Assembly: GCA_008921705.1 (NCBI GenBank)
Contig: VFFE01007622.1
Location: 1,271,501-1,335,500 of the forward strand
Length of the DNA: 64,000 bases
From: Burhinus oedicnemus
Taxonomy: Eukaryota > Chordata > Aves > Charadriiformes > Burhinidae
Direction of reading: 5' to 3'
Shown here: one piece after another, positions 27,960-56,236 of the stretch
Layout of the letters: every line of letters begins with the position of its first letter
Position numbering within the stretch: the stretch's first letter is position 1
Notes under the pieces: generated by a model
Told to the model about the DNA's origin: nothing
Databases searched by the model: none
The model's input: the letters and a program-made list of their open reading frames with translations, nothing else
Position numbers and translations under genes: made by a program

Positions 27960-28172
27960 TCACTGCATATTTCTGTTCCCATCACTGTCCTGGTGCTCCC
28001 CACCTGGAGAAGCTGTTTTGCTGGCCTCATTGTCTGTGTTGTTGTTGAGGATGTCGTCGCAATCCATCTGTGCCATCAGGTTGAAGCGCTCGGCCACGCA
28101 GTGGGCAGTAAGGCGAGCCTCGGGGTCGTGGTCCCAGCACTCCGTGATGGTGTCGCACAGAAAGCGCATTCC
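27960..28172 (-). CDS. TGFBR2L: TGFBR2-like exon 7: kinase C-lobe end and cytoplasmic tail
   Basis: 213 bases after a minus-strand acceptor (TGACCACAG), phase 0. It starts GMRFLCDTITECWDHDPEAR and runs through LTAHCVAERF, a near-exact match to the TGFBR2 last exon. The tail that follows is Asn/Asp/Ser-rich (DCDDILNNNTDNEASKT) and about 11 residues longer than remembered human TGFBR2, without evident similarity. The TGA stop is at 27962-27960. Confidence 0.95.
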   Translation of the reverse strand, partial: GMRFLCDTITECWDHDPEARLTAHCVAERFNLMAQMDCDDILNNNTDNEASKTASPGGEHQDSDGNRNMQ

Positions 28173-55100: not shown

Positions 55101-56236
55101 GGTTCCAGTTGCTGGCACAAGCTCATCAGCACTGGTTTGCATGCAGGACATGTATTAGGGTGTGATGGTCCTGGAGGCACGGACTCTCCAGCTCCCATGC
55201 GTGGTCAGAGGACTTGCCATCACATGCTGCAATGGGAGGACAGCGTCTCTTTGCAGGCTGAGTGAAGGGGGCAGGAGTTTCCTTCAGATACCTTCAGGCC
55301 TTATCAGCACTATACTCTGGAGCCGGGGTGGAAGCTGCTGGGGATGGCTTTGTTTGGACCTCTGCTTACCCAGAAGAGCTGGAGTTTTGGATCCAGCGCA
55401 GAGTAAATGACATGGAGCTAAAGGGAACATCTCTATTGACAGCATGGCAAGGTGAGAGGTTTTGCTGCAGGCAGAGCAGGTCCGATACGATGCTGCTTCA
55501 ACCACTTCCAGAGTCATGACCAAGGTGTGGGTCGAACTGGAGCGTGGGATTCTGCAAAGTGACACCCAGCAGCTGCCACCACTGGAGCTGCACATCAGCT
55601 CCCCATTACAGCTTGCTCCTGCTGAGAGCTGCACATTGCCCAGCAGAAATGCTGAAAAACATTTTTTTTTTTTTTAATTATTATTTTAATCTTGAGTCCA
55701 GCTGTAAATTATCCTGCCTAGTCAAGGGTAACGCTTAGGTTGAGGTATATCCTCGGAGCTGCTGGAATCCACACGGGCAATAGCCCTTCCACCCAGTGCA
55801 GACTGGCAGGCTGCAGCGTACAGCTGGACACATTAATTGCCCCAACGCCGAGATGCATTTGCTGTAGTATAAATCAGCTGTCGTTTGTCAGGCGTGTTCC
55901 TGGCTTATCAATGGGAAGCAAAACAGTGCGGTGGAACGGCTCCGTGAAAGGGTAAGTCCTGGAGTGATGTAGCTGGTGGGAGCATGGGCTGCAGAGGGGA
56001 CTGCACGATAAGCAGGCTCTCCCACTTCTCCATAAAGCTTGACAGCTACCAGCAGCCAGCAGGAGAGTTTCAGCCGTACACGGGCTGTAACAAAAAGATG
56101 AACCAACTGACGAACAAGAAATATGACTCTGATGAACCTTACAGATCCTTTCCGGAGGCAGGATCACAATGGTCACCTCTGAATCCAGGGATGTGCATAC
56201 GAGCAGGGCCAAGACAGCTTTCAGCCACCCCTTCAT
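27960..56236 (-). CDS. TGFBR2L: TGF-beta receptor type II paralogue (TGFBR2-like serine/threonine kinase receptor), complete 7-exon gene
   Basis: Exons 56236-56143, 42495-42345, 38344-38142, 35088-34280, 34163-34022, 32773-32646 and 28172-27960 join in phase to 1740 bases, a 579-residue protein plus TGA (human TGFBR2 is 567). Features: signal peptide at 1 to about 20; cysteine-rich ectodomain, about 34-138, ending in a CxC...CN box (C130, C132, C138, N139); N-glycosylation sequons at N86, N111 and N146; transmembrane helix, about 159-184; kinase, about 245-545. The kinase has the glycine loop GKGQFAEV (252-259), ATP lysine K278, HRD 378-380, DFG 398-400 and APE 427-429. Type II receptors bind TGF-beta family dimers at the cell surface and phosphorylate the GS box of type I receptors; this gene has no GS box, as expected for type II. 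LPIELDxxVGKGxFAEV and GTARYMAPEVLESR are TGFBR2-specific. Ectodomain, linker and C-tail diverge too much for TGFBR2 itself, so I call a paralogue. The symbol is descriptive. Its neighbour OSBPL11 is convergent. Confidence 0.95.
28245..28464 (+). mobile_element. CR1 LINE fragment (3' end), 5'-truncated
   Basis: It shows the hallmarks of the avian CR1 3' end: GGAACTTCTTTACTTTGAGG, then GGAACAGGCTGCCCAGAGAG, GGTTGGACTAGGTGATCTCC and CCCTTCCAACCCCTGTGATT. About 220 bases remain, all noncoding. It lies in receptor intron 6, antisense to the gene, with its near edge about 72 bases from the exon 7 acceptor. Confidence 0.95.
30402..30798. repeat. 12-bp direct repeat flanking the longer CR1 copy (possible target-site duplication)
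   Basis: AGGAAGCCCTTG occurs at 30402-30413, at the 5' edge of the CR1 fragment, and again at 30787-30798, six bases past its octamer tail. The position suggests a target-site duplication, which is unusual for CR1. Confidence 0.6.
30405..30780 (+). mobile_element. CR1 LINE fragment, 5'-truncated, longer copy
   Basis: A second CR1 copy of about 375 bases. It has GAGAAGAGAAGACTGAGAGG, then GGTGGCAGAGCACTGGAACA and the terminal CCTTCCAACCCCTACCATTC followed by the tail ATTCTGTGATTCTGTGA. It overlaps the shorter copy over its last 220 bases. It lies in receptor intron 6, antisense to the gene, and 12-base direct repeats flank it (see separate entry). Confidence 0.96.
32646..32773 (-). CDS. TGFBR2L: TGFBR2-like exon 6: kinase C-lobe
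   Basis: 128 bases between the minus-strand acceptor CTTCCTTGCAG and donor GTAAAC. It completes a Glu codon and encodes VKNYELPFGSKVQEQPCVD through GRGRPEIPSSWLVHQ. The TGFBR2 counterpart reads VKDYEPPFGSKVREHPCVE and so on, with the same 42-codon length. Ends in phase 0, joining GMRFLC of exon 7. Confidence 0.95.
33753..33800 (+). repeat. Possible old CR1 3'-end remnant
   Basis: GGGGGCTGGACCAGATGGCC followed by GGGGTCCCGTCC resembles the degenerate CR1 terminus (GGGGTTGGACTAGATGACC and so on). It is only about 45 bases long, so it may be chance. Confidence 0.3.
34022..34163 (-). CDS. TGFBR2L: TGFBR2-like exon 5: activation segment and APE motif
   Basis: 142 bases, acceptor GCCCGCAG-type upstream of GTGGGCACC, donor GTAGGA. 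It encodes VGTARYMAPEVLESRVNLED, then LESFKQMDVYSMALVLWEMA, SRCEVVG and one base of Glu. APE (427-429) and the VYSMALVLWEM helix are TGFBR2-type. Upstream is the 116-base GC-AG intron. Confidence 0.96.
34164..34279 (-). other. TGFBR2L: GC-AG intron 4 of the TGFBR2-like gene
   Basis: Exon 4 ends CAG at 34280 and the intron begins GCAAGT, the strong consensus for GC donors (CAG|GCAAGT), and ends CAG. At 116 bases it is the shortest intron of the gene. No GT donor nearby keeps the conserved residues ANSGQ|VGTARYM joined. Confidence 0.9.
34280..35088 (-). CDS. TGFBR2L: TGFBR2-like exon 4: transmembrane helix, juxtamembrane linker and kinase N-lobe to DFG
   Basis: 809 bases, acceptor CCTCCCCGCAG, GC donor. 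Residues 150-419. ISLLPPLLVAVM begins the transmembrane helix (human has ISLLPPLGVA). A Gly/Pro/Arg-rich linker (about 186-240) shows little similarity to TGFBR2 until PTCASSHPTELLPIELD. Then come GKGQFAEVW, VAVKIF (K278), WLITAYHSRGNL, HRDIKSTNVLVKN and CDFGIAIRL, ending VDDFANSGQ. The exon is markedly GC-rich, which also opens a long spurious antisense frame. Confidence 0.97.
35089..38141. other. TGFBR2-like intron 3
   Basis: 3.05 kb with no recognised exon or repeat family. Several short antisense frames near 35.3-35.7 kb reflect local GC richness only. Confidence 0.6.
38142..38344 (-). CDS. TGFBR2L: TGFBR2-like exon 3: second half of the ligand-binding ectodomain
   Basis: 203 bases, acceptor GCACGTGCAG, donor GTGAGT. 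It completes Trp82 and encodes RQDNESIRISTLCHNPHRP, then NYNTSRCIMTHQP, the YICGCVDEQECND box and LIFENHTNG. It aligns to TGFBR2 RKNDENITLETVCHDP and FMCSCSSDECND, with one extra residue between the CxC and CN cysteines. Three N-X-S/T sequons are visible. Too short in any single frame to stand out without splice reasoning. Confidence 0.95.
38345..42344. other. TGFBR2-like intron 2
   Basis: 4.0 kb without recognised exons. It holds a (TTTG)n tract at 41467-41486; open frames of up to about 120 codons have no domain or splice support. Confidence 0.6.
41467..41486. repeat. (TTTG)5 microsatellite
   Basis: Five consecutive TTTG units in intron 2 of the receptor gene. Confidence 0.85.
42345..42495 (-). 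CDS. TGFBR2L: TGFBR2-like exon 2: first half of the ligand-binding ectodomain
   Basis: 151 bases, acceptor CTCTGCCCCGCAG, donor GTAAGC. It completes Ser32 and encodes CCAGARRSLKTNLCKWCDS, then PACEEKVCYSNCNLNSYCED, PYEICVAI and two bases of Trp82. The cysteine pattern LCKxCD...C...CxSNCxxxSxCE...ICVAxW is that of TGFBR2 exon 2 and its finger 1. The extra Cys pair at the start (CCAG) is not in remembered human TGFBR2. Confidence 0.95.
44546..44603. repeat. Imperfect tandem duplication of about 30 bp
   Basis: TTGTTATTTATGTATTTATA is followed by a near copy, ATGTTATTTACTTATTTATA, with related CC/CACGG(GG) sequence ahead of each. A small local duplication in intron 1. Confidence 0.7.
45143..45160. 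repeat. Poly(A) tract
   Basis: About 18 consecutive A. No retroposon body was recognised next to it. Confidence 0.9.
48658..48684. repeat. GTGTGCGCGCACAC palindrome merging into a (CA)n microsatellite
   Basis: A perfect 14-base self-complementary palindrome (48658-48671) continues as alternating CA to 48684. Alternating purine-pyrimidine sequence with a CG core can adopt Z-DNA or a hairpin. Confidence 0.85.
48837..48857. repeat. Poly(T) tract
   Basis: About 21 consecutive T, followed by a C/T-rich stretch. No adjacent element identified. Confidence 0.9.
56143..56236 (-). CDS. TGFBR2L: TGFBR2-like exon 1: start codon and signal peptide
   Basis: The minus-strand ATG at 56236 opens MKGWLKAVLALLVC, then TSLDSEVTIVILPPERI: a basic N-terminus and hydrophobic core typical of a secretory signal. 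The frame meets a donor (TCT|GTAAGG) after 31 codons plus one base, 94 coding bases. From memory, human TGFBR2 exon 1 also has 94 coding bases (intron at c.94/95), also phase 1, with PP at a similar place. The leftover T joins the CC of exon 2 to give Ser. No other upstream minus-strand frame I examined combines a signal peptide with a phase-1 donor. It is assigned by inference, since no transcript is available; the -1 donor base is T, not the usual G. Confidence 0.75.

Follow-up and report, generated by a model that had tools for sequence, protein, structure and literature searches.

An intact TGFBR2L gene in the bird Burhinus oedicnemus, encoding a predicted TGF-beta type II receptor whose split from TGFBR2 likely predates the jawed vertebrates

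Introduction

A stretch of 64,000 nt from the bird Burhinus oedicnemus (hereafter the window; contig VFFE01007622.1, with all coordinates given as positions in the window) encodes on its minus strand, from 61458 to 27960, a complete TGF-beta type II receptor, TGFBR2L. We conclude with good confidence that this is an intact gene and that it likely diverged from TGFBR2 before jawed vertebrates arose. Its predicted role is to bind ligands of the TGF-beta type and, in response, to switch on a type I receptor with SMAD proteins as its effectors. The observed basis comprises the gene structure, the 12 ectodomain cysteines, the membrane span, the kinase motifs, the clade membership and the long-term conservation of the protein, each described below.

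TGFBR2L is a gene already known both in databases, where NCBI names many amniote orthologues ‘TGF-beta receptor type-2-like’, and in print. A 2018 study (PMC5979292) finds a TGFBR2B among fishes in teleosts, gar, elephant shark and coelacanth and, mammals excepted, among tetrapods, with birds named, and counts it as a product of the two rounds of vertebrate genome duplication (2R). A 2026 study (PMC13187141) describes TGFBR2L as a 2R duplicate of TGFBR2 that was lost in all mammals and in some birds and amphibians. From the distribution that the accessible portions of these papers share (birds, other non-mammalian tetrapods, coelacanth and fishes, with absence from mammals) we infer that TGFBR2B and TGFBR2L are the same clade. 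Relative to the published gene, we add exon 1 and an unusual splice donor for one bird. Within the portions available to us, neither paper reports a functional test of the clade, an inverted constraint or a residue pattern of this kind, and the constraint relative to TGFBR2 and the pattern at ectodomain positions 53, 22, 24 and 118 described here may both be new.

Results

Gene structure

Exon-by-exon joining and splice-site reading gave a coding span of 33.5 kb and a protein of 565 aa, the same length as the orthologues P0001 (from the bustard Chlamydotis macqueenii) and P0003 (P numbers denote database proteins). The reading frame has no stops and no frameshifts, and the splice sites are usable. 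The coding part of exon 1 (61407..61458, on the minus strand like all exons that follow) comprises 52 bases that hold the start codon and the predicted signal peptide MGCWRRPGLLSLLLLSF, ends at a gtgagt donor in phase 1, and matches without gaps the first exons of P0001, P0003, P0011 and P0016. The two halves of the ligand-binding ectodomain, which aligns to that of TGFBR2, are encoded by exon 2 (42345..42495; in-frame join, AG acceptor and GT donor) and exon 3 (38142..38344; in-frame join). Exon 4 (34280..35088) carries the membrane span, the linker and the kinase up to the NSGQ residues beyond the DFG motif, exon 5 (34022..34163) the end of the activation segment and the next part of the kinase, exon 6 (32646..32773) further kinase sequence, and exon 7 (27960..28172) the kinase end, the tail and the stop codon. 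Every acceptor of exons 2-7 is AG, and their entry phases (1, 2, 1, 0, 1, 0) are mutually consistent, bearing out the claim that all splice phases agree.

The donor of intron 4 is GC instead of GT (34278..34279, CAG|gcaagt). At this place Q-A-S stands in four bird models from the database (P0002, P0004, P0014 and P0019), which have additional or changed residues past NSGQ, while P0001 and P0003 join correctly and P0007 reads NSGQ|VGTARYM across the junction. The four models appear to read through the GC donor, and their Q-A-S fits a GC donor that was kept from tinamou to songbirds.

The original prediction, a seven-exon minus-strand receptor of 579 residues, gave end points without exon coordinates, and we took its exons to be the seven-exon join between those ends. 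That join does yield exactly 579 residues without a stop, but its exon 1 was wrongly placed. The exon in question (56143..56236, minus strand) is a chance open frame of 94 bases that is in frame, has a fitting donor and would suit the first exon of TGFBR2 in length and phase. None of three motifs from it occurs in any of the 328 database proteins fetched. We rejected it because the orthologues P0001, P0003, P0011 and P0016 have another peptide at their N-terminus, one that matches the exon at 61458-61407; in an ungapped scan of the window with the first-exon peptide of P0001 as query, this exon scored 81 and the runner-up 28. The coding region thus extends past 56236 to 61458, and the exchange for the 52-base exon leaves the entry phases of exons 2-7 unaffected. 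An upstream open reading frame of 6 codons plus a stop, read by eye, lies just 5' of the start codon (61513-61493, minus strand) and could dampen translation.

Support for splicing comes from P0007, a 624-aa reading frame in a 2,110-base contig. It covers the sequence between a point upstream of exon 1 and exon 7, including the junction of exons 4 and 5. We take this protein (source tag ‘lgn’) to stem from an assembly of public reads and, by its position in the tree, from a bird. The contig is most simply a spliced RNA, because the coding span in the window is 33.5 kb as against 2,110 bases. For the expression that the original prediction had supposed, there is thus a transcript-sized contig that crosses the joins in a bird relative, but none from B. 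oedicnemus itself, which presumably expresses the gene.

Domains and predicted structure

Pfam recognizes in the predicted protein the ectodomain family of TGFBR2 (ecTbetaR2, PF08917; 7e-43) and a kinase (Pkinase; 2.2e-32). The ectodomain retains 12 of 12 cysteines, a hydrophobic membrane span follows, and the kinase motifs GKGQFAEV, VAVK, HRD, DFG and APE are all present. The kinase scores 504.6 bits against human TGFBR2 and 278.6 bits against ACVR2B. TGFBR2L shares with TGFBR2 the PF08917 ectodomain with its 12 cysteines, the domain order and a kinase that is about 70% identical within one species (e.g. 213 of 299 residues in Pezoporus), whereas the tails have little in common (2 of 29 residues identical in Pezoporus). 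The superfamily also includes the type II receptors ACVR2A, ACVR2B, BMPR2 and AMHR2, which likewise have a kinase, although the kinase scores against ACVR2A, ACVR2B and BMPR2 lie far below that against TGFBR2. A structure model was made for the bustard orthologue P0001 in place of the window protein; its ectodomain blocks reach a predicted local distance difference test (pLDDT) score of 82-91, and its best PDB matches are kinase structures of TGFBR2 (template modelling score TMt 0.84).

Phylogeny and age of the duplication

We built a kinase tree from 68 of 239 database proteins, picked for taxonomic spread, together with the window protein and two activin receptors (ACVR2A/B) as outgroup. TGFBR2L forms a monophyletic clade (support 84) of 36 members including the window protein, and TGFBR2 another (support 96) of 33 members. 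Sauropsids in the TGFBR2L clade are birds, crocodile, turtles, tuatara, lizards and a snake, joined by amphibians, lungfish, coelacanth, ray-finned fishes, shark, ray and chimaera. The TGFBR2 clade holds, among amniotes, birds, alligator, turtles, tuatara, lizards, a snake and mammals, and in addition amphibians, coelacanth, ray-finned fishes and shark. The window protein, which lacks the isoleucine of TGFBR2 at position 53, sits within the former clade and outside the latter. In approximately unbiased (AU) tests, forcing the birds, the sauropsids or the tetrapods of both clades together was rejected (p 9e-8 or less); these three constraints represent duplications within birds, within sauropsids and within tetrapods.

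By this tree the duplication that separated TGFBR2L and TGFBR2 likely predates the jawed vertebrates, in agreement with the 2R origin given by PMC5979292 and PMC13187141. The original prediction was thus right that the window holds, in intact form, a further gene for a type II receptor of TGF-beta that is distinct from TGFBR2, and tree and AU test alike place it outside avian TGFBR2, where a recent copy would fall. The suggestion of an extra receptor in birds, possibly also in other sauropsids or fishes, holds insofar as the second receptor is real, but its clade spans the jawed vertebrates and is no novelty of birds. No named mammal occurred among the 120 matches listed, of 2353, in a protein search with TGFBR2L.

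Constraint in TGFBR2L and TGFBR2

To compare the two paralogues we used 11 matched species pairs on one fixed species tree, with 60 site bootstraps, and expressed the result as the ratio of TGFBR2L to TGFBR2 tree length; two of the pairs combine different species, namely Crocodylus with Alligator among crocodilians and two species of Chiloscyllium among sharks. The ectodomain ratio was 0.53 (0.30-0.84) in the sauropsid part of the tree and 0.65 over all 11 pairs, and that of the membrane span 0.25 (0.08-0.96) and 0.40. The linker, in contrast, gave 7.2 (3.7-16.0) in sauropsids and 1.84 over all pairs, and the kinase 3.6 (2.4-5.6) and 1.94. Since ectodomain and membrane span are slower and kinase and linker faster in TGFBR2L, the paralogues divide constraint in opposite ways. 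Even so, the kinase of TGFBR2L evolves more slowly than its own ectodomain (0.40 versus 0.76). Between the window protein and tinamou TGFBR2L, 11 of 299 kinase residues, 10 of 97 in the ectodomain and none of 27 in the membrane span differ, as compared with 18 of 48 in the linker and 8 of 31 in the tail. The membrane span is also identical to that of crocodile TGFBR2L (0/27 differences).

Ectodomain positions for ligand and type I receptor

Positions are numbered on human TGFBR2 after PMC12785921. Out of 328 proteins 315 were used, the remaining 13 being dropped for an unreadable ectodomain motif or fewer than 10 cysteines. Position 30 divided them into 112 TGFBR2L sequences with Trp (including the window protein) and 202 TGFBR2 sequences with Phe, which makes Trp30 circular as a mark of the clade; P0060 and P0191, with Tyr at this position, were assigned to neither set. 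The division agrees with the list from the TGFBR2L search, in that no listed protein falls in the Phe30 set, nor the reverse. The counts that follow come from related sequences and are not independent trials.

Position 53, usually isoleucine in TGFBR2, is aromatic in 112/112 TGFBR2L sequences, the window protein among them, as compared with 2/202 of TGFBR2. Both sets keep acidic residues at position 32 (103/112 in TGFBR2L, 201/202 in TGFBR2) and position 119 (111/112 and 198/202), which we take to pair with arginines of TGF-beta. Elsewhere the sets part ways. A hydrophobic residue stands at position 22 in 27/112 TGFBR2L versus 188/202 TGFBR2 sequences and at position 24 in 4/112 versus 188/202, both positions being mostly polar or basic in TGFBR2L, and the acidic residue at position 118 (192/202 in TGFBR2) is found in 0/112, with Gln or His in its place. 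On the other hand, position 23 is hydrophobic in 95/112 TGFBR2L and in only 19/202 TGFBR2 sequences, and all 112 TGFBR2L sequences, but just 25/202 of TGFBR2, have an extra residue before position 118 that is acidic in the window protein.

According to PMC12785921, the site for TGF-beta3 on human TGFBR2 overlaps with residues 27-32 and 49-55. The simulation reported there, made with a peptide ligand, has Val22, Pro25, Asp118 and Glu119 of the human receptor forming bonds to the type I receptor, with energetic contributions to the complex from Ala21 and Phe24. With positions 22, 24 and 118 mostly replaced across the TGFBR2L clade, recruitment of the type I receptor may differ from that by TGFBR2.

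Related receptors and published mentions

In lungfish, TGFBR2L has a double ligand-binding domain according to the text seen of PMC13187141, and the clade member P0036 from the lungfish Protopterus annectens indeed has two such domains, both with CKWC. The same paper attributes to zebrafish, but not to chicken, a second paralogue named Tgfbr2b and shows it to bind TGF-beta1 and to signal; like TGFBR2L, Tgfbr2b is a second TGFBR2-type receptor, here with a single ligand-binding domain. The single-domain zebrafish protein P0247 falls in our Phe30 (TGFBR2) set. The published Tgfbr2b thus probably belongs to the TGFBR2 clade, and we did not adopt it as a functional proxy for TGFBR2L. The symbol TGFBR2L also appears in expression lists for chick spleen, tilapia skin and frog wounds, in a table of CRISPR targets and among cichlid candidate genes, for genes that may belong to this clade. 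The tilapia paper states that the gene so named can inhibit melanin synthesis through TGF-beta signalling, a statement drawn from expression and cited work.

Neighbouring sequences and canonical TGFBR2

On the plus strand of the window lies an exon of an oxysterol-binding-protein gene (14082..14558; Pfam Oxysterol_BP, 2e-31), of OSBPL10/11 type by close paralogue and named OSBPL11 in the original prediction; the placement of the receptor beside such a gene is upheld. A second oxysterol-binding locus in the B. oedicnemus genome is 71% identical to that of the window, and TGFBR2 presumably lies near OSBPL10 in other vertebrates. One ectodomain and two kinase-exon queries did not find TGFBR2 in this genome, some stretches of which read N; with a human TGFBR2 exon piece the best match was TGFBR2L itself (65%), followed by one at 35%. 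Intron 6 of TGFBR2L contains two copies of a dispersed repeat (28247-28467 and 30574-30773) that are 87-88% alike and that we take to resemble the 3' end of avian CR1 elements. Scans of the window for transfer RNAs, tandem repeats and Rfam families gave nothing relevant.

Discussion

TGFBR2L is most likely a functional type II receptor, and its docking surface appears to have changed. Its ectodomain would bind a TGF-beta-type dimer, and the acidic residues kept at positions 32 and 119 point to a TGF-beta as the probable ligand. Its kinase would in turn phosphorylate a type I receptor, ALK5 or another, perhaps recruited differently than by TGFBR2, and the phosphorylated partner would pass the signal on to SMAD proteins.

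Several observations weigh against this interpretation. The changed positions 30, 51 and 53 lie in stretches that overlap the TGF-beta3 site as given by PMC12785921, so that TGFBR2L might bind TGF-beta only weakly or have a different ligand. The faster kinase and linker, together with the variable linker and tail among birds, could mean relaxed signalling. Support for the TGFBR2L clade is moderate (84), its internal branching departs from the species tree (coelacanth outermost, with weakly supported nodes), and a long branch leads to the outgroup. A retrocopy would resemble the P0007 contig, and the confidence of the whole P0001 model is modest (mean pLDDT 65.7). Finally, in the parts of the literature that our search could reach, we found no binding, kinase or reporter test of any member of the clade.

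Explanations that deny the gene its age or its integrity fare poorly. A kinase still about 70% identical to that of TGFBR2 within a species (213/299 in Pezoporus) might suggest a recent avian, sauropsid or tetrapod copy, yet both clades hold shark, ray-finned fishes, coelacanth and tetrapods, the AU test rejected all three versions, and the aromatic residue at position 53 separates the two sets nearly completely; we give this explanation virtually no weight. Decay, with an open frame left over from a recent loss of function, seems very unlikely as well: it would suit the faster kinase and linker and the reported loss of the gene from mammals as a whole and from certain birds and amphibians (PMC13187141), but the gene has neither stops nor frameshifts, usable splice sites, all 12 cysteines, a membrane span identical to that of crocodile, and a closest orthologue cluster (that of P0001) of 280 members. 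It is likewise very unlikely that TGFBR2L has replaced TGFBR2 in B. oedicnemus. The genome queries gave no TGFBR2, and the human TGFBR2 exon piece matched nothing beyond TGFBR2L itself more closely than 35%, but other birds have both receptors, such as Pezoporus occidentalis (P0003 and P0132), and some stretches of this genome read N.

A more serious contender, although we still regard it as unlikely, is that TGFBR2L binds ligand and signals weakly or not at all through ALK5, acting either as a decoy or with a partner of the ALK1, ALK2 or ALK4 class. The near loss of a hydrophobic position 24 (4/112), its scarcity at 22 (27/112) and the absence of an acid at 118 (0/112) argue for it, given that the simulation in PMC12785921, as far as accessible, ties Val22, Phe24 and Asp118 to the type I receptor complex; so does an ectodomain and membrane span that are slower, with a kinase and linker that are faster, than in TGFBR2. 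Against this, the hydrophobic position 23 in 95/112 sequences may mean a contact shifted by one residue, the acid may only be displaced to the extra residue before position 118, Glu119, which bonds with the type I receptor in the same simulation, is kept, and the kinase motifs are intact; the contacts themselves, moreover, derive from a simulation with a peptide ligand (PMC12785921, accessible part). The residue pattern makes the function of TGFBR2L addressable by a short binding and reporter experiment. For cloning of the gene the corrected exon 1 and the GC donor matter, as some automatic models appear to be wrong there.

Although speculative, and somewhat less probable to us than the decoy or alternative-partner explanation, TGFBR2L may represent a receptor class of its own, confined to jawed vertebrates other than mammals, in which the ligand grip of TGFBR2 would be kept and the face that recruits ALK5 rebuilt. 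A type I receptor other than ALK5 would then be paired with TGF-beta, or with a ligand specific to TGFBR2L, and the inverted constraint would be the mark of the class. The biology of TGF-beta receptors has been built largely on mammals, which are reported to be without TGFBR2L, and more than one sort of type II receptor for TGF-beta, namely two, may lie behind results obtained in chicken, Xenopus and fish. If such a separate class is real, birds, reptiles and fishes would have a branch of TGF-beta signalling that is missing from mammals.

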